Under the pieces are notes generated by a model. It made no database searches, was not told where the DNA came from, and was given only the letters and a program-made list of their open reading frames with translations. Position numbers and translations under genes: made by a program. Shown piece after piece: positions 144 through 15,126 of a DNA stretch of 24,956 bases (its first letter is position 1; each line of letters starts with the position of its first letter). This DNA comes from Acidobacteriota bacterium (GTDB lineage Bacteria > Acidobacteriota > Terriglobia > Bryobacterales > Bryobacteraceae), in assembly GCA_026394095.1 (NCBI GenBank), contig JAPKYY010000176.1:1-24956 (forward strand), in the 5' to 3' direction.

Positions 144-228
144 GCGGAGGTGGCGGAATTGGCAGACGCACTAGCTTGAGGTGCTAGCGGGTAACACCGT
201 GCAGGTTCAAGTCCTGTCCTCCGCACCA
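144..228 (+). tRNA. tRNA-Leu (anticodon GAG)
   Basis: A complete tRNA fold is readable. The 7-bp acceptor stem pairs GCGGAGG at 144-150 with CCTCCGC ending at 224. The anticodon stem CTAGC/GCTAG encloses the loop TTGAGGT, giving anticodon GAG. A long class II variable arm follows, and the T-loop contains GGTTCAAGTCC. The discriminator is A225 and the CCA end is encoded at 226-228. The D-arm sequence TGGCGGAATTGGCAGACGC and the long variable arm are typical of tRNA-Leu, which reads CUC/CUU codons here. Confidence 0.96.
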
Positions 229-234
229 AATCTT

Positions 235-270
235 AAGGCCGTCGCATCCCATCGATGCGGCGGCCTTTCT
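235..270 (+). terminator. Intrinsic terminator after tRNA-Leu
   Basis: An inverted repeat at 235-248 and 254-267 forms a 14-bp stem with one G-T pair around a 5-base loop. It is followed by a short T-rich stretch (TTTCTC). It lies 6 bases after the tRNA CCA end, so it should end the tRNA transcript and separate it from the downstream protease gene. Confidence 0.8.
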
Positions 271-272
271 CA

Positions 273-308
273 TTGGACAGGGCCGCCAGCTGTGACATAA
301 TCACGCGA
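273..308 (+). promoter_or_regulatory. Promoter of the C25-like protease gene, predicted leaderless
   Basis: TTGGAC at 273-278 and CATAAT at 296-301 are separated by exactly 17 bases, a good housekeeping sigma-factor match. A start 7 bases after the -10 box falls on position 308, the A of the ATG. No Shine-Dalgarno sequence precedes that ATG. Together these predict a leaderless mRNA. The alternative is a longer transcript from the tRNA promoter that reads through the terminator. Confidence 0.5.
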
Positions 309-1753
309 TGGCACGCTTGAGCGATTCTCCTGATGGAATGCCCTACCCCTTTGGAATCTCTGCAGCCAGTGGCCGGCCGCTCTCGAGCCTCAAAGATCGG
401 GTCTCATCTCTGGTGAAAGAAAAAGAGGGCGAGCCTTCACTTTCCCGGCTTCATCTGGACCTTCGACTCAAGACCAAATTGGGGACGATTGTTCGGGAAA
501 AGAACAATCTCAAACAGACCGGCTGGGCCGTGGTTTATCCCTACGAGCTGGATGATCAGATCAAGCAAAACTTGGACCCGCTGATTCAACATCGCCGGGC
601 ACAGGTAAACAATGACAAGCTTTTTCAGGTGTTTGATGGCGAAAGGGGTTATCTTCCGGACGATACGGCAGAATCCTGGCTGCGGCGCCGCGGCGTGACT
701 CTCAATATCGTGAACCCGAGCCTGGGTGTGCCCTATTACATTCTGCTCGTTGGCTCAGCCGAGCAAATTCCGTTCAGTTTCCAATACTCGCTTGATCTGT
801 TTTGGGCCGTAGGACGGCTCTGGTTTGACGAGCCAGACGGCTTTCGGGCCTACGCTGAATCTGTTATCCGCTACGAGACGATGGCTGAAGTTTCCGTCCG
901 GAAGCAGGTAGCCTTATTCGCTCCCCGCCATAGGGAGGACGAGGCCACCCAGTTGTTTGTTGTAGACGTTGCGGAGCCCTTTGCAGGAGAAAACCCTGAT
1001 TTGTTTCTGAACCAGGTAGACGGAGTGCAAGTAAAACCCTTTATCGAAGCGGCAGCCACACGTCAATCGCTGTTCAATCTGCTGGACGGTTCTTCTGGGA
1101 TCGGCCAGCCGGCCCTGCTATTCAGTGGTGGCCACGGTTTGTATTTTTCTCCTGAAGACCCCAAACACGAGACCTCGACCGGAGCACTGCTCTGCCAGGA
1201 CTGGAGCGGCCCTGGCAAGTTGGCTCGTGAGGATTACTTTGAGGCGTCGGATCTTCCCCAAAACGCCAGGATTCACGGTTTGATTCACTTCATGTTCGCT
1301 TGCTATGGCGGAGGGTGGCCCCAGTTCGATACGTTTCGCGACTTCAACGACCCTGAAGCGCAGATCAGCCCCCGCCCAAGGATTGCGAAATTGCCTCAGA
1401 CTTTGCTTTCGCATCCGAGTGGAGGGGCATTGGCGGTTTTGGCCCATATCGACCGCGCCTGGGCCTATTCATTTCGAGCGGGGAGCCTGGCCCAGACCCA
1501 GGGTTTCAGCAGCATTCTGATCAATCTCATGAGCGGGGATCGCATCGGGGAAGCCTGCGATGCTTTCAATCTGCTTCAAGCCTCCAGCCAGCAAGCCCTG
1601 AATCAGCTTCTACCGAAAGTTGTGAGAGACGAAGCCGTAAACGAAGTGACGCTTGCCAACAAGTGGGTGGCTCTGAATGATGCGCGAAGCTACGTCGTGC
1701 TTGGGGATCCGGCTGTGCGGCTGCGCGTGGAAGACATGGCCCCCGCGCAATAG
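308..1753 (+). CDS. C25/gingipain-like (clan CD) cysteine peptidase homologue
   Basis: A 481-residue protein with the His-Cys dyad arrangement of clan CD cysteine peptidases. A hydrophobic strand leads into SGGHG with His276, and a second strand leads into FACYGGG with Cys332. Near the C-terminus is the motif VLGDPAVRL (464-472), characteristic of the gingipain C25 family, where mature domains usually contain LGDP. The N-terminal ~130 residues are hydrophilic and without a recognisable domain. There is no signal peptide or membrane segment, which is unusual for C25 enzymes because they are normally secreted; a cytoplasmic role is therefore inferred. The gene follows tRNA-Leu and converges on the CHAT/TonB-receptor operon with only 5 bases between stops. 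A CHAT-type caspase-like protein is the alternative reading, but the LGDP motif favours C25. The substrate is unknown. Confidence 0.7.
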   Translation: MARLSDSPDGMPYPFGISAASGRPLSSLKDRVSSLVKEKEGEPSLSRLHLDLRLKTKLGTIVREKNNLKQTGWAVVYPYELDDQIKQNLDPLIQHRRAQVNNDKLFQVFDGERGYLPDDTAESWLRRRGVTLNIVNPSLGVPYYILLVGSAEQIPFSFQYSLDLFWAVGRLWFDEPDGFRAYAESVIRYETMAEVSVRKQVALFAPRHREDEATQLFVVDVAEPFAGENPDLFLNQVDGVQVKPFIEAAATRQSLFNLLDGSSGIGQPALLFSGGHGLYFSPEDPKHETSTGALLCQDWSGPGKLAREDYFEASDLPQNARIHGLIHFMFACYGGGWPQFDTFRDFNDPEAQISPRPRIAKLPQTLLSHPSGGALAVLAHIDRAWAYSFRAGSLAQTQGFSSILINLMSGDRIGEACDAFNLLQASSQQALNQLLPKVVRDEAVNEVTLANKWVALNDARSYVVLGDPAVRLRVEDMAPAQ

Positions 1754-1758
1754 CGGCT

Positions 1759-2571
1759 TTAGCGGCCCACGGGAGCTTGTCCTGGAAATGAGGCTATCGA
1801 GTCGATTCCGCCTTGACCGAATCGAATTCGCAGCACGAACCCGGAAAGCTCCAGTGCCTTTCGACTGCCTCCAAAATCGACGGTATTGACTTCCAGGATT
1901 CCTCGCTTGCCTGCGATATCGGGACAATTCACTTTCGAAGGGACAATATCAAATGCCAGTTGCTCACCCTTCCGGACCTGTTTGGACTTCACTTCACAAC
2001 TGAGCCCGTCTTCATAACGGAACGACAAATCCACGTATGCATCGGTGTCGAAAGACGGATTTACCAGAGCGATTGCGCTTTGAAACTGGCCCGAATTGTC
2101 GAAAGGCACTAGAAACCGGCTCACGAAGCGGGAACTGAATGGCACTGTCGTGTCGATGGCGGGGCGGTCTTGCGCTTTGTACGTCATGACGACGTATCCG
2201 GCCAGAGCATCGCTGGAGTTGACCTCGGCCCAACCGAAAAGAGTATTGTCTGCACAGCCCTCGCCGGATGTTTCGAGGACGTATTGCTTGTTCGGGTCGA
2301 GGGTTGAGGCAACTGAAGTTTTTGGCAAAAACAGTTCGTCCCTACTCGAGCGGACTTTCAGCGTCCGACCCAGCACTTGCTGCCCCGGGCCCTGCGAATT
2401 CGGCCAGAACTTGACACTGAATTCGATGGGTTTGGCTGTGGCATTCAAGAGAATAATCGTGGTTGTCCAGTCACAACCATCCGGGATGTGTGGAATGACA
2501 GCATCGGCATAGAAGTTCTGCGCCCATGCGCCCGTCGCGAGCAGGAACAAAAGTTGTATCGTTTTCGTCAT
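1759..2571 (-). CDS. Small secreted protein, beta-rich, function unknown
   Basis: A 270-residue protein with a clear signal peptide: MTKT, a hydrophobic core of about ten residues, then AWAQ, with cleavage near residue 18. The mature part is rich in alternating hydrophobic/polar stretches and aromatic residues, suggesting two beta-sandwich-like halves (about 20-140 and 145-260). It has four cysteines (33, 106, 192, 216), enough for two disulfides outside the cytoplasm. I do not recognise the family. The ATG at 2571 is preceded by GAGGAA with 5-base spacing. It is the last gene of the minus-strand operon, 13 bases after the barrel gene, so a shared surface or periplasmic role with that receptor is inferred. 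Confidence 0.75.
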   Translation of the reverse strand: MTKTIQLLFLLATGAWAQNFYADAVIPHIPDGCDWTTTIILLNATAKPIEFSVKFWPNSQGPGQQVLGRTLKVRSSRDELFLPKTSVASTLDPNKQYVLETSGEGCADNTLFGWAEVNSSDALAGYVVMTYKAQDRPAIDTTVPFSSRFVSRFLVPFDNSGQFQSAIALVNPSFDTDAYVDLSFRYEDGLSCEVKSKQVRKGEQLAFDIVPSKVNCPDIAGKRGILEVNTVDFGGSRKALELSGFVLRIRFGQGGIDSIASFPGQAPVGR

Positions 2572-2584
2572 GATGTTCCTCGAA

Positions 2585-5500
2585 TCAGAATGAGTATTTG
2601 AGTACCAGTTGCAGGGTCCGGGCCGGGACAGTTGTATCGACAGATCCGCCGAATCCGGGGCCTTCGAGAAAACGGACTGGGCTTCCGAAGTTCACCCGGT
2701 TCAGTGCATTAAACAGTTCCGCCCGTAGAAGAACACGATGCCCAGCCTCAGACACGCTTAAGGACTTTGTCAGCGCCAGATCGAGCGACCCAAGGCCAGC
2801 CGCGCGGAACGTGTTTCGGCCCACCGCCCCATCTCTACCATCGAGCGCCAGCATTGAAAGCGGGTTCACCCCCGGTGCCAGCGCGACGCGGATGCGCCGG
2901 TCGCTCGATGCGGTGCTGAGGCGGGCGGTGGAAACAAGGCGGTCGGTGAGGTTGCCGTCCCGGTTGATGTCGAAGGTGCTGTTGATTGTGTAGGGCTGGC
3001 CGGTTTGCATGGTGAGGATTCCCGACAACTGGAAGCCGCGGACTTCCGAGACAAAATGGCTGACGCTGCGCACCCGCATATCAAAACCCGAAGAGCCGCG
3101 CTCTGATGGTGTCCTGCTGTTCTGGGGCAGGGCGAAGCTTCCTGCTGTGTCGAAAAAGTCTGAAGCGTCGTCGATCGCATGGGAGAACGTGAAAGCGGAC
3201 CCAAACTGGAAGCGACCCTTGTGTTTTTTTAGTTCCAATTGCAGCGAATGGTAGGTGGAAGTTGCACTGCTTTCGAAAATCGTGGGAGCGATAGTGAAGG
3301 AATTGGCAACTCGCAAATCCTGAGGCGGGCGCATCACGCCACTCAAGGATGGAAAGGCGACAGCGGTGCCGGTCTGGCCCACCACCGGCTGGACATCAGA
3401 ATCGAACTGGATCAGGCTTCGGCCCAATCCTCCTTGCGGCGTAGAAACACGAAACAACGAAACACCCCGCGTCCCTACATAGGCGGCGGACACAAAGATG
3501 CCAGACGTGAGATTCGTATCCACCGTAAGCGAGTATTGATAAGAGCGGGGATTGCGGATCTCCCTTGACGGCAGAACCAGATTCAGGCCGGGGAAGGTAG
3601 GGGAAAGAGCGCCGCGCAGGCTGTAGAGATTCAGCGCCAGCAATCCCAAGGCGCTCGTCCCTTCCTTGAGCGAGTTGAGTGTGCCCGGTTGGATCACATC
3701 GAGATTCGGCTGCTTCGCGCGGACGGCGGGATTGGCCAGATTAAAGAGCATCGGTGCTGAATCGTCTTGCGGGGAGAAGTTGACAAGATTGAGCGGGACA
3801 AAATCGGGGAATGCACTGCGCGACTGGTTGATGACAACTCCGGGAGCCGGGCTCGAGTAGGTTCCGAAGCCAGCCCGCACAGACCACTTACCGGTGGCAG
3901 GAGTCCAGACCAGACCGGCACGCGGATGAAGCGCAAGTTTATCTGGACCGAAGCCCACCCGGTAGTCTGGAATGTTCTCGAAAAAGTTGGTGAGGCCGAT
4001 CGAGGTAGTGCCGCCACCGCTGCAACGGCCAGGGCAAGACAACTGAAGTGTCCTGGCTTCGGCCGTCAGGTCGGCCTTGTTGAAGGCGTTTTCGAGCTTG
4101 TTACCCGCGGTTGCGGGCACGGTGTTCAATTCATACCGCAGCCCGATAGTGGCGCGAAGGTTTGGCAGCAGTTGCATACTATCCTGTGCAAAGAAACTGT
4201 ACTGGGTAAAGCGCACACCGAGGGATCGATCCTGCCTGGAGGTGGCGAGTGTCTGAAAGAATCCGGTGGGTACTCCTGCCGCCGCCAGCGTGGTTGGCGA
4301 GTAGGCATCCTGCGAGAGAACTTCACCCGATGAAAGCAGCGGCAGCAAGCCCCCTGGGTTACGAAGCCCCCCGAACTCTGCCAGTGGGCGGGCATTCCGG
4401 TCGAGCACGCTATCGATCCGGGTATGACGGATATCAAAGCCCCCCATCAACAGATGGGGGCCGCGTACAAGCGTAATTGTGTCGGCCAGCTGAAAAGTAT
4501 TGTTAGCCCGGCGCTGCGGAAAGTTGTAGACGTCTACCCCGAGCGGGCTGTAGCCTGCCATCTTCAGTTGCCCAAGAGGACCAGTGAGTTCCTCTGTATC
4601 GTCCCCTTTGTAGCCGAGCCCGCCTACCCGCGTAGCAGAAACATACTGGGGATCCTTTCCAGGGGTAGTGATGTCCAGCAGGAGAGGAGCGTTGAGCAGG
4701 AACGGAGTGCCGGGCAGCAATCGCGATCCCCGAGGCGATCCCTGCCCATTGTCGAAGTGAGAGCTTGTGCGCCCAAATGAGAAACGCAGAGACTGGGATG
4801 AGATTCGCTGGGAGTGCGTGTTGAAAAAGAACGCGACGTTCTGCGTTTGTAGCTTGGGGGCTACTGAGGAGTAGAGGCCTTCTCCGGTGACAGGCAGAAC
4901 ACTGTGCTCGCCGGTCCTGTTGTAGCGGCCGCTGATTTCCTGGTTCTCGCTGAGTTTACGGTCGATCTTAAACGATCCAATCCAGGCCGTGGCATCGGCT
5001 GGCAGTACGGTGGAGTAAGTGTTGGGTCCATAGGGTCCCGACGGACGGTTCGGAAAAGGGTAAAGGCTGAAGATTGCATTTCCGGGTAGCGAAGCGGGCG
5101 TGAAGTCCTTGTTGGTTGATGCCGAGCCGAGCCGGGAGAACCCGGTTCCTCCAGTGCCAAAGATCCCGCGCTCGGCGATTGTAGGCACAGCAAAATCGTG
5201 AGCCTCCCGGCCGGAAACGGCCAGCCGCTCGATGCTGGCGAAAAAGAAGGTTTGGTTCTCTTCTTTGCGGCGAGTCAGTTTGAGTGGCCCTCCAAACACT
5301 GCCCCGGTTTGCAGACGAGTTCGAGGAGCGGTTTGGACGGCGGGATTTTCGAGCAGCCTGGGGCTGCCATCCACCCGCACCACTCGGCCTCCGCTCTGCA
5401 GAGGAAGCTGTGCAGGGCCCGCGTTCCCGGTAAAGTCAAAGAAGTCTCGGGCGTTCAGGCTGCGGTTATTGAAAAAGCCATACAAGGTGCCATGGACTTC

Positions 5501-6508
5501 GCTGCCGCCATATTTCGACAGGACGTTTACATTTCCCGCCAGATTGCGGCCAAAGCGGGTATCGCCAATAGACGAGATCACTTGAAACTCGAGAATCGAT
5601 TCGATCGGCTGAGGCACCAAAGCCACAAATCCCTGGCGGCGCACGCCTACGTCTTCTTCGTTGTTGTCTGAGCCGTCAATGCTGAAGCTGTTGTCACGGC
5701 TTCGTAGTCCGTTGATGGTGAATTGTCCGGAGGTGCCTACGCTTGCGCTGATTCCTGGCCCAGGGTGGTTTCTGGTGGCAGGAGCGGGAAGCACGCCCGG
5801 ACTCAGGAGAGCAAATTGGTCAAAGGTTCGGATTCCCGGCAGAGGCAGCTTCTCGATGAGCGATGCGCCAAAGACTCCGCGCCGTGTGGCTTCAGCAAGC
5901 TCCGGATGACCTTGGGGAGTGTAGCTTGCACCACTTGGATTCTGCGGCGGGACAGACTGCGGGGAGGATTCGTCCTCCTCGGGCGCTGAGTTATTGGATG
6001 TAAGGTGAAGGGAAGTCCAGCGCGAAGCCAGGATGTCGCGATCGGGGGCCTTTTTGATACTGGCTGATACCACGCGGATGTACTGCGGATCGAGGATGTT
6101 CAACGAATTGCTCTGTTTGATGGAGACCAAAGTATCCGACTGAGGTTTGTATCTCCCCATGGTGATTTCCAGTTTGTAGGTAGTGCCTGGAATCAAACCT
6201 GGAAGGTGGAAGATCCCATCGTCCTTCAACTTGTTGCTACAAACCCTCGATCTTGCGCCAGACGTGTCGGAGGCGCAGAGCTGAGCTCCTTCCAGATTTG
6301 GCAAAAGAGTTTTCCGGAAGGATTGAAAGGAGAAAATCGAAGGCCACGGGCAACTCTTGATATCCGCCTTCGAATCGATAATACAGCCCCGAGCGCCGCC
6401 ACCTTTTTCGGCTTGAGCAAATCCGTTGTCCTGCGCTGCATGCAAAACAAACAGAAATAAGAGCCATCTTGCTGAGAAGAATTGGCGCTCAGAAAGAGCA
6501 GAAGTCAT
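2585..6508 (-). CDS. TonB-dependent receptor-like outer-membrane protein (Oar-like)
   Basis: A 1307-residue outer-membrane protein. The order is: signal peptide (hydrophobic WLLFLFVL core, cleavage near GFAQ-A); a carboxypeptidase-regulatory-like beta domain at about 40-165; a linker; a plug domain at about 210-335 (RTFDQFALLSPGV, then INGLRSRDNSFSIDG); then a large beta-barrel ending in Phe (LVLKYSF), the usual outer-membrane insertion signal. Such Oar-like receptors are expanded in Acidobacteriota and are assumed to import or bind large substrates; the ligand is unknown. I chose the ATG at 6508 because it overlaps the CHAT stop as ATGA and leaves a proper signal peptide; a GTG 30 bases upstream would add ten residues. 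No obvious TonB box was identified, so energy coupling is uncertain. Confidence 0.9.
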   Translation of the reverse strand: MTSALSERQFFSARWLLFLFVLHAAQDNGFAQAEKGGGARGCIIDSKADIKSCPWPSIFSFQSFRKTLLPNLEGAQLCASDTSGARSRVCSNKLKDDGIFHLPGLIPGTTYKLEITMGRYKPQSDTLVSIKQSNSLNILDPQYIRVVSASIKKAPDRDILASRWTSLHLTSNNSAPEEDESSPQSVPPQNPSGASYTPQGHPELAEATRRGVFGASLIEKLPLPGIRTFDQFALLSPGVLPAPATRNHPGPGISASVGTSGQFTINGLRSRDNSFSIDGSDNNEEDVGVRRQGFVALVPQPIESILEFQVISSIGDTRFGRNLAGNVNVLSKYGGSEVHGTLYGFFNNRSLNARDFFDFTGNAGPAQLPLQSGGRVVRVDGSPRLLENPAVQTAPRTRLQTGAVFGGPLKLTRRKEENQTFFFASIERLAVSGREAHDFAVPTIAERGIFGTGGTGFSRLGSASTNKDFTPASLPGNAIFSLYPFPNRPSGPYGPNTYSTVLPADATAWIGSFKIDRKLSENQEISGRYNRTGEHSVLPVTGEGLYSSVAPKLQTQNVAFFFNTHSQRISSQSLRFSFGRTSSHFDNGQGSPRGSRLLPGTPFLLNAPLLLDITTPGKDPQYVSATRVGGLGYKGDDTEELTGPLGQLKMAGYSPLGVDVYNFPQRRANNTFQLADTITLVRGPHLLMGGFDIRHTRIDSVLDRNARPLAEFGGLRNPGGLLPLLSSGEVLSQDAYSPTTLAAAGVPTGFFQTLATSRQDRSLGVRFTQYSFFAQDSMQLLPNLRATIGLRYELNTVPATAGNKLENAFNKADLTAEARTLQLSCPGRCSGGGTTSIGLTNFFENIPDYRVGFGPDKLALHPRAGLVWTPATGKWSVRAGFGTYSSPAPGVVINQSRSAFPDFVPLNLVNFSPQDDSAPMLFNLANPAVRAKQPNLDVIQPGTLNSLKEGTSALGLLALNLYSLRGALSPTFPGLNLVLPSREIRNPRSYQYSLTVDTNLTSGIFVSAAYVGTRGVSLFRVSTPQGGLGRSLIQFDSDVQPVVGQTGTAVAFPSLSGVMRPPQDLRVANSFTIAPTIFESSATSTYHSLQLELKKHKGRFQFGSAFTFSHAIDDASDFFDTAGSFALPQNSRTPSERGSSGFDMRVRSVSHFVSEVRGFQLSGILTMQTGQPYTINSTFDINRDGNLTDRLVSTARLSTASSDRRIRVALAPGVNPLSMLALDGRDGAVGRNTFRAAGLGSLDLALTKSLSVSEAGHRVLLRAELFNALNRVNFGSPVRFLEGPGFGGSVDTTVPARTLQLVLKYSF

Positions 6509-8703
6509 TGTTGGCTTCCACCCTTGAGGCGGGACCACCAGTCCAACTGCCTCTCGATCTGCATCGCCTCGATCAGCACTCCGCCTGCTTTCGGCCTGGC
6601 AAAGCCAACCGTATGGCTAGGGCTGGGCGGGCCTATGGCAAAAACTCTCGATTCCTGCGGGCTCGTATCTGTAGCAGATCCGGAGTGAATACTATATTTG
6701 ATGCCGTCTGCTAAGAAGATACCTTCGATGCTTACCGATTTTTTCCCATCGCTTCTACTAAAACCGAGCAAGCTAAAAACAAATGGGTCATCATCGGTTC
6801 CGTTCTTCAGCACAGGCCCATTCAATAAAAATTTGTCGACATTGGTCCATGTCAGCCGAAACAGATTTTCCGGATTGCTGCCAATTGCGGAACCCAGATT
6901 TCGAAGAATCCAAGCGACACTGGAGCCCTGCGAATCGAATTGAACCGTGAAAAAAATACGAGAAGTGCGAACGCCTGGCATGGGCCCGTTATAAAGGATA
7001 GCCTCGGGCAATTGACCTGCCTGAAGCGGGATTCCAATCGGACCTGAAGGCGGTTTCAGGGTTGAGCATGGAGAGGGAAGGCAAGTCCAATTCTTGAGCA
7101 CCTGTTGATCTCCAACAGCCCAGTCAAAAGGTTCCGAGACTAAGGTCGTTGCCTTGTCTTCTGTGGAAACCCAGCGGATCCAGAAGGCCAAAATAAGGGC
7201 GGCCGCGATCCCTGAAACAATCAGCCACTTGTTCGCCGGAGGCCGCCTGGTCAGCTCCGTCCAGAGTGTAGCCAGATCCTGCTGGTTTTTCTCATCGAGG
7301 GTCTTTAGCTCTTCGGCCTCGCGAACAATAGGAATAAAGGGAGCGGCTACGGTTAGCTTGTAGGCGTCTTTGGTAGTGCCGTTGAGGAATCGCCCCACAC
7401 GGCTGGCGCACCCACCAATCTGGGTGTCGTCGAGTCCACTGGCCGTTCCTTGCAGAGTAGAGGCGGCAAGGGCAATCACCTCCAAAGCCTTGCTGATCTG
7501 TTGTGGGTTCATCCGGTCTACAGCGGCCTTGATAAGGGCAGCTTCTTTGCCGCCTTGTTTTCGCAGTTGAAGGAGCTCTTCGCTTAATGTGAGTTGCGGC
7601 TGGCTGCCTTGTTCCTGCTGGGTAGTATCCTGAAACAGCCGGCCATCAGCCACGCGCATGAAGAGGGTGGGTATGCCGGAACCGCTGTCTTTCTTGTTCA
7701 CCAGCGAAGCCCGCGCGATGTTGCAAGCCCGGTCGACAACGCCAGAGGTGAGCAATTCTTTGTAGAAGCGAACCGAGAAATCACGTGCAGTGTCGAGCGC
7801 CACAATGTCCCGCATGGCGACAACAGCGGGCATATCCGCCTTCACCAATTGCAGCCCCAGACCCTGGAAGGCGTCCTCACCACTCCGCGCTGCACTCTGG
7901 CAACTGCACAGAACTGCCAGCCGCAACGCTTTGCCGCCGTCACAACTGGAAATCATACGAGCAAAGTCACGATCGGTTACTTCGTAATCTGTCTCATAGC
8001 CCTGAGCCGCTTCAGAGCTTGCCTTCTCGAGATACAACTCGGCGGTAGGCGCATCTTCCTGCGGGACAAAACGGCCGTGGGCAATCAGATGCAGGATGTG
8101 ATAAGGCTGCTTCTCAACCATTGCGCGATCGAGTTCCTGTTCGATCGCCGTGAGACTGCACGGCCTTGGGACGACACCCACTACACCAGAGTATTTCTTA
8201 ACTGCTTCCTCGATCGCCCGCAGTTCCACGGCGGGATCAAACTGGGGCTGGTCGCCCGGAGCCGCAATCGCTACCAGGACCCTGACCGGGCCTTCGTCCA
8301 CCTCTATCTCGGAGAAGCCGAGTTGGGGAATGGTTCGGGAGAAGGGAGTGTCAGAGTCAGCCGCCAGGACGTTGAAGGGTAGTCCCTGCTCGGTTTCCGG
8401 CTTACGCAGTAATTCCCAGGGGGCCAAATGAAAATGGGGGGCGTCTTCGAAAATGGATAAGCGAACCCGGCGCTTGGGATTTTTGTCGAAAGCGGTCCTC
8501 CAGAAGTCTCGTAACTTACCCTGGAAGAGCCAGTTGTAGAGAGCCTCCCCGGCCTCCTTGTCATCAAGGCCAGCCCAGGAAGGCAGAGGGTTTGCGGCCT
8601 GCTGACAGCTTTTGTTTGCGATGTTTGCCCCGCTCAAGGTAACCGACCCGTCTTTCTCGATTTCGATGTTGAGCATTTCGTAAGAATCGTTAGGGGTCGA
8701 CAT
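6505..8703 (-). CDS. CHAT-domain protease with a transmembrane anchor and C-terminal extracytoplasmic domain
   Basis: A 732-residue protein. Residues about 80-350 form a CHAT (caspase HetF associated with TPRs) domain: APWELL at 94-99, the pseudo-repeat ending in a RTIP motif, HLIAHG with catalytic His209, and LCSCQSA with catalytic Cys268. A helical segment (370-490) leads to one transmembrane helix (493-511, WLIVSGIAAALILAFWIRW). Residues 512-732 form a beta-rich domain resembling a jelly-roll, presumably in the periplasm. There is no signal peptide, so the protease should be cytoplasmic, with the C-terminal domain outside as a possible sensor. The ATG at 8703 gives the first residues that look like domain sequence but lacks a Shine-Dalgarno; an upstream GTG at 8895 is possible. 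The region encoding the C-terminal domain is visibly AT-richer. First gene of the operon with the barrel gene. Confidence 0.85.
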   Translation of the reverse strand: MSTPNDSYEMLNIEIEKDGSVTLSGANIANKSCQQAANPLPSWAGLDDKEAGEALYNWLFQGKLRDFWRTAFDKNPKRRVRLSIFEDAPHFHLAPWELLRKPETEQGLPFNVLAADSDTPFSRTIPQLGFSEIEVDEGPVRVLVAIAAPGDQPQFDPAVELRAIEEAVKKYSGVVGVVPRPCSLTAIEQELDRAMVEKQPYHILHLIAHGRFVPQEDAPTAELYLEKASSEAAQGYETDYEVTDRDFARMISSCDGGKALRLAVLCSCQSAARSGEDAFQGLGLQLVKADMPAVVAMRDIVALDTARDFSVRFYKELLTSGVVDRACNIARASLVNKKDSGSGIPTLFMRVADGRLFQDTTQQEQGSQPQLTLSEELLQLRKQGGKEAALIKAAVDRMNPQQISKALEVIALAASTLQGTASGLDDTQIGGCASRVGRFLNGTTKDAYKLTVAAPFIPIVREAEELKTLDEKNQQDLATLWTELTRRPPANKWLIVSGIAAALILAFWIRWVSTEDKATTLVSEPFDWAVGDQQVLKNWTCLPSPCSTLKPPSGPIGIPLQAGQLPEAILYNGPMPGVRTSRIFFTVQFDSQGSSVAWILRNLGSAIGSNPENLFRLTWTNVDKFLLNGPVLKNGTDDDPFVFSLLGFSRSDGKKSVSIEGIFLADGIKYSIHSGSATDTSPQESRVFAIGPPSPSHTVGFARPKAGGVLIEAMQIERQLDWWSRLKGGSQQ

Positions 8704-8738
8704 AGGAGGGCGGGGATACCGGCTTTGTATTGGTTTGG

Positions 8739-8744
8739 ATTGTA
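8739..8744 (-). promoter_or_regulatory. Weak -10 candidate upstream of the CHAT operon
   Basis: Read on the minus strand, TACAAT lies about 35 bases before the chosen CHAT start codon. No convincing -35 box is present at 16-18 bases. The position is right for the operon promoter, but the assignment rests on one hexamer. Confidence 0.2.
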
Positions 8745-8799
8745 ACATCTCTCCCATGCGGGCGCGGCTGAGTTTTCCACTTCCCTTTCCAAAACTACC

Positions 8800-9440: not shown

Positions 9441-9501
9441 GCGGGACAACTCAAGGCAGGCGCGAGCGGACACCACATCCATGGGGAAAGAAGAATCTGG
9501 A

Positions 9502-11470
9502 ATGAATTCGACTGAAGTAGAAGCACTGCTGGAGCGTGCAGCAACGCAAATCATGCTGGGCGAGAATGCCGAGACGGTTGCTACGCTTGCGCTCTTGAGC
9601 AGCATCTCGATTCCAGCTGAGGCTATGCAGCTGGTTGTGGAATTGCACGCTGTGGCAAAAGACAACGTCTCGGAGGAGAACCAGTGGGAGGATGAAGCGA
9701 GCCGGGCGCGGGTTGAGCAGGGGCTGGACCGGCTCAGGCAGATTCTCTCGGACTCAGCAAAAGGCAACGATCCTGTCGCGCAGAGGGTGGCAACGCCAGC
9801 ACAAGCTACATCGAGCGCACTCAACCAGGATCCGGAGCTGGTTGGAGACTTCATTCTTGAGGCGCGTGAACACCTGCAGACAGTCGAATCCGGGCTGCTG
9901 ATTCTCGAAAAAGAACCAACGAATCCAGAAACGCTGAACGCCGTTTTTCGCAGTTTCCACACCATCAAGGGCTTGGCTGGTTTCCTGGAATTCGCCCATA
10001 TCCAGGCCGTATCGCACGAGGTAGAAACGATTCTCGATCTGGCTCGTACGGGGCAGTTGGTGTTGAGTCCGAATCTGGTGGATTTGACGCTCGAGAGCGC
10101 GGATTTTGTGGGCAAGGAAGTTTTGCGGATTGAATCGCAGTTACACGGGCAGGATCCGGGTGAGGAGCAAGACCCGTGGTCGTTGCTGGACCGGGTAAGG
10201 AAGGTAATCGCTGGAGATCACTCGGCATCGGCAGAACCAAAAATCGAGACGCCGGCCAGGGTGGATGGGCCAAAGCCTGCGGCGCCGACGCCAGCTGTGG
10301 CTTCTGTAGCTCCAGTAGCTTCAGTAACCCCAGTGGCTTCTGTAAACCCGGTGGTTGAAGTGCCCCAACCCGAGATTGCCGCCAAGACAGCTGAGGAATC
10401 TGCGCCGGCAGGTACGGCAACAAGCCAGGATGCCAAGGCAAAGAAGGCAGTAGCGACCGACACACATGCGATTCGCGTAGACACAGCAAAGCTCGATTAC
10501 CTGCTCGACATGGTAGGCGAAATGGTGATCGCCGAATCGATGGTGCGTCTGGATCCGGATTTGAGTGGAACCAAGAACACGCGTTTACAAAGGAATTTGA
10601 ACCAGTTGCGCCGGGTGACCGAGGAAGTGCAGAAGGTCGCAATGGCGACGCGCCTGATCCCGGTAGGAACCTTGTTCCAGCGGGTAAACCGTTTGGTGCG
10701 CGACACCTCACGCAAGGCCGGCAAGATGGCAGATGTTGAGCTTGTAGGCGAAGATACGCAGCTGGACAAGACGATTATCGAGGAACTGACCGACCCAATC
10801 ATGCACATGGTGCGCAACTCGATCGACCATGGCATTGAGGCTCCGGCCGACCGGGTCCAGGCGGGTAAGCCGCAGTCGGGCCGAGTGCAACTCAAAGCCT
10901 ATCGTCAGGCCGACCACATCCAGATTGAGATTGTCGACGACGGCCGTGGCTTGAACAAAGACAAGATTCTGGCCAAGGCGCGCGAGCGGGGTCTGGTGGG
11001 AGACACAGTGAACATGACCGACTCAGAGATCTTCCAGTTGATCTTTGAGCCGGGCTTCTCGACTGCCGAAAAAGTAACTGACATTTCAGGCCGCGGCGTA
11101 GGGATGGATGTCGTGAAAAAGCAGATTCAGAAGCTGCGCGGCAAGATCGAAATCAAGTCCACACAAGGCGAGGGACCCACGTTTTATCTGAAGTTGCCGC
11201 TGACCCTGGCCATTGTCGATGGGCTGGTGGTTGGAGTGGGAAAAGAGCGCTACATTCTGCCCATTTGTCCTGATGGTGGATGAATTTATCGGCAAGCAGG
11301 AAGTGGTGATCAAGAGCCTCGGGGCAAGCATCAAGAACACGCCTGGAATTGCTGGCGGAGCCATCCTCGGTGACGGCCGCGTGGGGCTGATCCTTGACCT
11401 CGAAGCAATCTATGTCGAACGAAGCAAAAGAGCCGAAATCATCAAGGAAAGCCTGCTGACCGCATGCTGA
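9502..11470 (+). pseudogene. cheA: Chemotaxis histidine kinase CheA, disrupted by an internal deletion with frameshift
   Basis: Autophosphorylating kinase of the chemosensory array. From Met at 9502: an unassigned helical N-terminal region (1-105); HPt domain with phosphorylated His153 (SFHTIKG); an Ala/Pro/Val linker; dimerisation helices (about 325-400); ATPase domain with N-box Asn439 (HMVRNSIDHG), G1 DDGRG (479-483) and G2 GRGVGMDVV (530-538). The C-terminal CheW-like domain starts (LAIVDGLVV...YILP), then frame 1 hits TGA at 11281-11283. The true C-terminus continues in frame 2 (VLMVDEFIGKQEVVIKSLG to 11470). Compared with known CheA, about 60 residues are missing at roughly 11261-11268. 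The loss should break coupling to CheW and receptors. Met at 9481 is an alternative start without a Shine-Dalgarno; the 9502 start follows a purine-rich stretch. cheR overlaps its end. Confidence 0.85.
10297..10350 (+). repeat. Three 18-bp tandem repeats in the CheA linker
   Basis: Three consecutive 18-base units encode VASVAP, VASVTP and VASVNP (CheA residues 266-283), differing by a few bases each. They lie in the flexible linker between the HPt domain and the dimerisation domain. Such units can vary in copy number between strains by slippage without breaking frame. Confidence 0.7.
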
Positions 11471-12112
11471 AAGAATCCACCAGCAACTACCAGGCAACCC
11501 GGCTCAGCCCAAAGCTCTTTGCGGCGGTAAGGGATTATGCCTACCGCACGGCGGGCATTGAGTTGCAGGACGGCAAGCAGGAAATGGTTGCGGCAAGGAT
11601 ATGGAAGCGGGCGCGAACCCTTGGCTATGATTCGGCCGACGAATATTTTGGTGCCGTCTCGAGGGACAAGAGTGGCGATCTGCAGGTGGATCTGATTGAT
11701 GCCCTGACAACGAACTTCACGAGTTTTTTTAGAGAACCGGCGCACTTTGATTTTTTGCGAAATCAAATATTGCCCAAGCTGCGTGGACGAAATCAGTTCA
11801 CGATCTGGACGGCGGCAAGTTCGAGCGGCGAAGAGCCGTACTCGATTGCCGTAACGTTGATCGAGACTCTTGGCGAAGCTGCGTTTCGACAGGCAAAGAT
11901 TTTTCCCGTTGATCTTTTTGCGGAACATCATGATCTATTTTGACCGCCCGACGCAAGAGCGAGTAGTAGCAGCAATGACGGCAAAGCTCGAGCCTGGGGG
12001 ATACCTTTTTGTAGGGCATTCGGAGAGCTTGAACGGAATTTCACACGCGCTTGAGCATGTACAGGTGGCCATTTATAAAAAAGCGGGACAACTGGAGGAA
12101 CGTAGAGCATGA
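11464..12112 (+). pseudogene. cheR: Chemotaxis methyltransferase CheR, disrupted by an internal deletion with frameshift
   Basis: CheR methylates receptor glutamates using S-adenosylmethionine. The N-terminal part is intact in frame 1: helical CheR-N domain (about 12-75), TTNFTSFFREP (82-92) and the SAM-site strand IWTAASSSGEEPYSIA (114-129). Shortly after FRQAKI it runs into a stop at 11943. The C-terminus is in frame 2: FPLIFLRNIMIYFDRPTQ and the closing GGYLFVGHSES to 12112. Against known CheR about 80 residues are absent, including the ATDIS-type SAM-binding segment, at roughly 11897-11906. As read, the enzyme cannot bind cofactor. The ATG at 11464 overlaps the cheA stop by 7 bases. Sequence on both sides is well conserved, so the lesion is recent or an assembly error. 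Confidence 0.85.
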
Positions 12113-14787: not shown

Positions 14788-15126
14788 ATGAATTTTTATA
14801 AGCAACTAGTAACTGTCTGCCTTCTGGCCTTGCCAGTAGCAGCCGAGACCAAAGTGAGTCACGCCGATGCCGTTCGAAATGCGGTGAAGCGTACCAATCC
14901 TGAATACAGCCCGATGGCTAAGCAGATGCGGATCCAGGGTGACGTAGAAGTGGAAGTGAAAATTTCTGAAAGTGGCGATGTGTCGGACGTGAAGGTAGTA
15001 ACCGGAAACCCGATGCTTTCAGCCCCGGTAGTTAAGGCGATGAAGGAATGGAAGTTCACGCCCTTCAATGAAGATGGCAAGCCGGCACCGGCAGTAGCAA
15101 GTTTGCGGTTTACGTTCAAACAGTAA
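14788..15126 (+). CDS. Small secreted protein with a TonB C-terminal domain
   Basis: A 112-residue protein: signal peptide (MNFYKQLVTVCLLALPVAAE, cleavage after VAA), then a TonB C-terminal fold over about residues 38-112, with the family pattern GDVEVEVKISESGDVSDVKVVTGNPMLSAPVVKAMKEWKFTPF and a terminal strand. Full TonB has a membrane anchor and Pro-rich spacer; both are absent, so this domain should be free in the periplasm or the N-terminal segment may remain as an anchor. GAGGAG precedes the ATG by 4 bases. It sits between cheB and the receptor gene, 75 bases after cheB, an unusual place. TonB energy transduction on its own is unlikely; a periplasmic binding role is inferred. Confidence 0.85.
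   Translation: MNFYKQLVTVCLLALPVAAETKVSHADAVRNAVKRTNPEYSPMAKQMRIQGDVEVEVKISESGDVSDVKVVTGNPMLSAPVVKAMKEWKFTPFNEDGKPAPAVASLRFTFKQ

Follow-up and report, generated by a model that had tools for sequence, protein, structure and literature searches.

The sequence analysed here, which we call the window, is a 24,956-nucleotide stretch of the genome of a soil bacterium of the Acidobacteriota family Bryobacteraceae (assembly GCA_026394095.1, contig JAPKYY010000176.1, positions 1 to 24,956 of the forward strand). The subject of this work is a block of exactly four genes, lying between a tRNA-Leu(gag) gene and cheW and encoding a C25-like peptidase, a secreted protein, an outer-membrane barrel resembling TonB-dependent receptors and a CHAT protease, P0001 (Table 1). 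An earlier note, made from the sequence alone, had dealt with the CHAT and receptor genes; the C25-like gene and the borders of the block lie outside the region that it covered. In a base-level comparison, homology to the closest same-genus genome (G003, locus L121) ended at window position 230 and restarted at 8774, so that the CHAT start codon, at 8703, falls within the block. In 5 of the 7 other same-genus genomes the site is empty and the tRNA-Leu(gag) gene adjoins cheW, at a distance of about 25 to 200 bp. No tRNA was detected at the site by ARAGORN in the other two (L126 and L127), which were not scored as empty sites, and the stretches fetched from them contained neither a CHAT nor a C25 gene. 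The homology break together with the five empty sites indicates that these 8,543 bp were either gained here or lost in the other genomes, gain being the simpler reading.

Table 1 Features of the four-gene block and its left border, with window positions and the basis of each assignment.
Feature	Position	Strand	Details and basis
C25-like (gingipain-family, clan CD) peptidase, putative His276/Cys332 pair	308..1753	+	481 amino acids (aa); PF01364
Secreted protein of unknown function, apparent signal peptide	1759..2571	-	270 aa; open reading frame (ORF); no Pfam or NCBIfam match
Oar-type TonB-dependent-receptor-like outer-membrane barrel	2585..6508	-	1307 aa; PF25183, PF00593
ATGA overlap, CHAT stop and receptor start	6505..6508	-	sequence
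CHAT protease with predicted membrane helix, P0001	6505..8703	-	732 aa; ATG as chosen in the earlier note
CHAT domain (His209, Cys268)	7624..8574	-	profile span; same dyad in all 20 domains aligned
Predicted membrane helix, residues 493-512	7168..7227	-	hydropathy; model helix at 492-512, of low confidence
C-terminal region, residues 513-732, presumed extracytoplasmic	6508..7167	-	beyond the helix; Cys541/Cys546
Block, probably acquired, with all four genes inside	231..8773	.	8,543 bp, tRNA-Leu to cheW; nucleotide homology break and empty sites
tRNA-Leu(gag), left neighbour of the block	144..228	+	ARAGORN

The CHAT and receptor genes overlap by 4 bp, the last two bases of the receptor ATG at 6508 being shared with the CHAT stop TGA (6507-6505), which confirms the ATGA junction described in the earlier note. 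Its proposal that both genes form an operon is supported as well, and the two share a block that is absent at this site from 5 of 7 same-genus genomes. The receptor matched PF25183 with 314.5 bits (cut-off 30) and PF00593 with 32.3 bits (cut-off 27), and the N-terminal STN signalling domain expected of a FecA-type transducer was not detected in it at E values up to 0.1. Ten candidates per genome were scored as receptor relatives, and closer receptors may exist. The gene encoding the 270-aa protein, whose signal peptide was judged by eye, starts 13 bp after the receptor gene. Divergent homologues of this protein were found in 18 of 60 other related genomes, and the 14 of those loci that were fetched had neither a receptor nor a CHAT or C25 gene inside the roughly 1.5 kb around the homologue.

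P0001 scored 77.5 bits against PF12770 (CHAT, cut-off 24), and its His209/Cys268 dyad, already described as intact, was invariant in all 20 aligned CHAT domains, namely those of the window, of P0002 (a protein of the same architecture) and of 18 of the 33 other rows. The only solved structure recovered by sequence comparison was a SAVED-CHAT chain, with an E value of 0.072. Hydropathy predicted a single hydrophobic helix at about residues 493-512, as the earlier note had it, and the structure model placed a helix at 492-512 with a predicted local distance difference test score (pLDDT) of only about 40-51. The charges flanking this helix (three positive and one negative before it, one positive and four negative after it) favour a cytoplasmic location of the CHAT side. 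To that extent the charges of P0001 agree with the topology first proposed, although the charge pattern beside the P0002 helix was ambiguous for orientation. The beta-rich outer domain proposed in the same place fared less well: some strands were predicted in residues 513-732, but with pLDDT below 40, this region matched no Pfam family, and neither of two structure predictions returned a usable fold (mean pLDDT 31 for residues 515-732 when predicted with P0002, and below 40 in the full-length model).

Among 60 homologues, P0002 was the one protein with the same C-terminal half as P0001; it is encoded on a 3,953-bp JGI contig, and its C-terminal half aligned to that of P0001 with a pairwise E value of 1e-13. 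Two protein searches with C-terminal-half queries returned the query alone and missed even the other member of this pair, so their sensitivity was low and they do not demonstrate an absence of relatives. Profile searches based on P0001 and P0002 detected this C-terminal half in none of 236 other genomes from the family, 395 from the phylum and 256 from the order (the sets overlap), and scanning the GTDB contigs with a pattern was likewise negative. A helix following the CHAT domain was more frequent, being predicted by hydropathy in 10 of the 60 CHAT homologues, the window included. Two same-genus CHAT proteins carry such a helix followed by a different C-terminal part, one with no receptor downstream (L096:474-2249, genome G004) and the other with no neighbour in view (L018:1222-2904, genome G007).

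What recurs beside CHAT genes is the C25-like peptidase, not the receptor. The C25-like protein of the window scored 33.4 bits against PF01364 (cut-off 23), and sequence comparison with solved structures found nothing. His276 was present in 35 and Cys332 in 34 of the 35 aligned C25-like sequences, window included, and from their motif context these residues are the putative catalytic pair. C25-like genes were found in 30 of the 237 genomes of the taxonomic family, that of the window included (E up to 1e-15), and relatives on GTDB contigs extended to Pseudomonadota, Cyanobacteriota, Chloroflexota, Planctomycetota and others, the best 80 of 364 being kept as loci. Both collections were then joined, and after removal of matches shorter than 330 residues and of rows sharing an identical 100-residue stretch, 91 distinct C25-like sequences remained (three of them from locus L136 and two from L197). 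A CHAT gene lay within four genes of 58 of these 91 sequences (57 of 90 without the window), compared with a very rough chance expectation of 0.016 CHAT genes per locus, calculated from the 8 CHAT genes in the 5.05-Mb genome of the window; other genomes may hold more. No CHAT gene was nearby for the other 33, which include a kinase-linked group of 10. At the 80 GTDB loci, the genes found within four genes of C25 were CHAT (49 loci), nSTAND1 (40), hydrolase-like (37), kinase (13) and receptor (3), and none of the 3 receptors was in the same operon. Genes in the fetched loci were crude longest-ORF calls labelled with profiles built on the first loci, and six loci where the C25 call was lost (L138, L173, L185, L186, L200 and L203) count as misses in the 49 of 80. 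In the C25 tree the window grouped with L081, L100 and L103 (four rows) with a Shimodaira-Hasegawa approximate likelihood-ratio test (SH-aLRT) value of 87, below the starred level of 95.

The pairing of CHAT with a receptor behaved very differently. Relatives' loci contained 111 distinct CHAT genes, of which 12 were set aside for want of a visible downstream neighbour; among the 99 remaining, the neighbour was on the same strand in 74 cases, and the only CHAT gene followed by a receptor was that of the window itself. Besides this receptor, the same-strand neighbours comprised 10 nSTAND1 genes, 8 hydrolase-like genes, 2 hydrolase-C25 fusions, 1 kinase and 52 unlabelled genes. It should be considered that this set is not random, the loci having been picked via C25 or P0001 and supplemented with the best PF12770 matches, that a few of them come from outside the taxonomic family, and that several flanks span only about 1.5 kb. 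In the genome of the window, 74 matches correspond to some 65 receptor genes at least, and 1.08 receptor neighbours would be expected by chance among 99 CHAT genes, with a probability of 0.66 of finding at least one. This estimate is based on 64 receptors and a density of 0.87 genes per kb; the count of about 65 receptor genes is a lower bound, with 65 of 116 candidates scored. One pairing observed against about 1.1 expected is statistically unremarkable by itself, and both the conservation of the pairing and the co-occurrence beyond chance, which the earlier note had put forward as the tests of its idea, came out negative. For true orthologues this negative result is weak, because P0002, whose neighbours are out of view, was the only other protein in which this C-terminal half of P0001 could be recognised. 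In favour of the pairing are the 4-bp overlap and the fact that a single block holds all four genes.

These counts bear on the relay of barrel and CHAT protein proposed in the earlier note, taken as a two-gene system to which the C25-like gene would be unrelated. The overlap, the operon and the helix predicted on the CHAT protein agree with such a two-gene relay, which nonetheless appears very unlikely, given that CHAT recurs beside C25-like genes in the 57 other cases, that the C25-like gene of the window is part of the same block, and that the barrel pairing is not conserved. The same counts bear on a much stronger alternative, in which CHAT and C25 are the functional module, with the barrel and the secreted protein as passengers: an ordinary nutrient receptor would have ended up between the two protease genes, on the CHAT transcript. 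It fits with the one chance neighbour or so to be expected from so many receptor genes, with the lack of a receptor in the operon of any other CHAT/C25 cassette examined and with the missing STN domain. The 4-bp overlap, the tight spacing to the secreted gene and the single block of four genes argue instead for a settled operon, and the CHAT protein has a helix and a further segment of its own, as if it worked at the membrane. We consider this passenger explanation a serious one, nearly as likely as the reading that we prefer and set out below.

The wider CHAT/C25 cassettes showed recurrent architectures. The order CHAT, nSTAND1, hydrolase-like, C25 was seen in Cupriavidus, Pseudomonas, Variovorax, Citrobacter and Buttiauxella; in a second arrangement, a CHAT gene with NACHT-like and HEAT portions preceded the hydrolase-like and C25 genes (the NACHT match of L080, 24 bits, being under its cut-off of 26.7); and in a third, CHAT-SIR2 was followed by nSTAND1, with C25. 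The alpha/beta-hydrolase label is weak, with E values of 0.017-0.048 against PF00561 and scores of 13.7 and 15.2 bits for a cut-off of 25.8. The hydrolase-like and C25 parts were fused in one frame directly after CHAT in two loci (L107:7756-11928 and L111:7739-10621), which suggests that they act together. In G003, the cassette L081 consists of CHAT and nSTAND1 on the minus strand and a convergent C25 gene on the plus strand, 3 bp away, which is the geometry of the window with nSTAND1 in place of the barrel and the secreted gene. Related gene groups were also found on plasmids: a conjugative Sinorhizobium plasmid carries genes named in RefSeq 'C25 family cysteine peptidase', 'ATP-binding protein' and 'CHAT domain-containing protein', and on a Nostoc plasmid the C25 gene precedes two genes annotated as CHAT, the C25-like protein being present in 3 of 72,556 plasmid records. 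The Citrobacter cassette gave no megablast match in E. coli genomes. Separately, five loci (L089, L090, L091, L092 and L093) had a kinase gene directly upstream of the C25-like gene and no CHAT in view; L090 belongs to the window's own genome, and the kinase of L089, the sole one scanned, carries TPRs. Doubled CHAT, nSTAND1 or C25 genes were seen at L197, L119 and L097, as if these modules expanded by duplication.

Among 25 CHAT-linked nSTAND1 proteins, 20 had a helix after the ATPase, as called by a hydropathy threshold alone; the first helix was always located at residues 431 to 536, with several hundred residues beyond it, and two of the 20 had four helices. Membrane anchoring, seemingly in the inner membrane, therefore looks common in the module. 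The window block combines CHAT and a C25-like gene in one cassette, as the module does, and has neither an nSTAND1 nor a hydrolase-like gene, for which reason we count it as a variant and not as a canonical member. In it the ATPase is missing and the CHAT protein itself bears the helix and a 220-residue segment beyond it, and this is the main reason for thinking that the window version senses across the membrane.

Taking these results together, our preferred reading, to which we assign a probability of roughly 40%, is that the cassette at 231-8773 was acquired and represents a widespread type of two-caspase conflict module in a variant form, its sensor side swapped for envelope proteins. An event at the envelope, such as phage adsorption or occupancy of the barrel, would be sensed by the CHAT segment beyond the helix, and the barrel and the secreted protein might help that segment to do so. 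The cytoplasmic CHAT domain would then become active and cleave a target, perhaps the C25-like peptidase, and together both proteases could arrest or kill the cell. The most far-reaching version of this scheme we regard as improbable: the outer-membrane TonB-type barrel and its secreted partner would signal the binding of a ligand or phage across the periplasm to an inner-membrane CHAT caspase with a single membrane pass, which would trigger a cytoplasmic gingipain-family protease, the surface receptor replacing the ATPase sensor in an inflammasome-like manner.

Several observations weigh against our preferred reading, beginning with the unconserved receptor pairing, the ambiguous charges of P0002 and the weak hydrolase label described above. 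The Pfam scan detected no integrase among the block genes, no exact repeat of the tRNA 3' end of at least 9 bp was found on the same strand of the window with the tRNA suffixes tried, and tRNA genes were present at only 3 of 30 related loci, so that tRNA sites are no habit of the module. As regards defence, a pattern scan of a viral contig collection found no relative of the C25-like gene, PADLOC gave no match for the four proteins of the block, and no experimental test of the module was found in openly licensed papers. Finally, with no ATPase or hydrolase-like gene in the block, this copy of the module could be reduced or dead. An alternative of a different kind is that P0001 is a regulatory protease bound to the membrane, comparable to HetF or DdvA and serving cell division, development or gene regulation rather than conflict. 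P0001 shares an overall layout with HetF (see below), yet its match to the HetF model lies far under the 1200-bit cut-off, and a housekeeping regulator would be expected neither to be missing, as the block is, from this site in same-genus genomes nor to belong to cassettes of patchy distribution, such as those in which the C25-like family is linked with CHAT, nSTAND1 and hydrolase-like genes. We thus hold this alternative to be unlikely.

On the other side of the block, the che genes at window positions 9481-11943 may contain frameshifts or assembly errors: CheA stops at 600 aa with no matched C-terminal CheW-like domain, and the CheR match covers only the first 72 of 195 positions of the SAM domain. 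We rejected a small TonB C-terminal-domain protein (14788-15126) as a candidate partner, because it sits in the che cluster and is likewise found there in 6 of the 7 other same-genus genomes (no match in L126), all of them without the block at this site.

To our knowledge, the triggers of caspase-type immunity in bacteria act inside the cell and are RNA, nucleotide signals or NLR-like ATPases. The CHAT/C25 pair, which looks like a little-studied self-defence module, is widespread and apparently membrane-anchored in most of the nSTAND1 versions examined, and the window variant may read the cell surface; if so, it would be the first known caspase-type response wired to an outer-membrane receptor. 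Leaving the receptor aside, the CHAT/nSTAND1/hydrolase-like/C25 cassette, whose range extends from Acidobacteriota to Enterobacteriaceae and Nostoc, is a concrete candidate for a defence system.

Among known systems, the module comes close to VMAP and related NTP-dependent systems: caspase-type peptidases with adjacent alpha/beta-hydrolases and NTPases are components of conflict systems, and the caspase domains of VMAP systems always occur beside an alpha/beta-hydrolase gene (Kaur et al. 2020, PMC7159879). The CHAT/C25 cassettes share with them the caspase-fold peptidase beside hydrolase genes and NTPases, whereas the window block lacks hydrolase and NTPase and has an outer-membrane barrel. 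The main text of that source mentions neither CHAT nor C25, TonB or the outer membrane, and no MoxR or vWA gene, as expected of a VMAP or MoxR-vWA ternary system, was matched among the 18 window genes scanned. The cyanobacterial protein HetF has an N-terminal CHAT domain and one predicted membrane segment, as P0001 does, and differs in its TPR domain and in its role in cell division and heterocyst development (PMC8406250); P0001 scored 34.6 bits against the HetF model NF045509, whose equivalog cut-off is 1200. Canu loci combine a MALT1-like caspase with a nuclease in phage defence (PMC12799240); the caspase-fold protease is the point in common, and neither CHAT nor C25 occurs in the main text of that paper.

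Unlike the TPR-CHAT protein of Craspase (Csx29), P0001 has no TPR match and has a membrane helix, and no CRISPR/Cas match was obtained among the 18 window genes scanned. Unlike SAVED-CHAT proteins, it has no detectable SAVED domain, and the PADLOC SAVED_CHAT model did not match it at E values up to 0.01. The window also differs from DdvA (8rot), which we take to be a transmembrane anti-sigma factor, in that no sigma factor was found among the same 18 genes. Pfam and PADLOC scans, whose coverage of bacterial gasdermins is uncertain, named no gasdermin gene. Neither the CHAT/nSTAND1/hydrolase/C25 cassette itself nor a combination of CHAT with a TonB-type receptor was found described in openly licensed papers. 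Conflict cassettes joining a caspase, a hydrolase and an NTPase are already known, and what appears new here is a CHAT/C25 cassette with an outer-membrane barrel and a CHAT protein predicted to be membrane-anchored.
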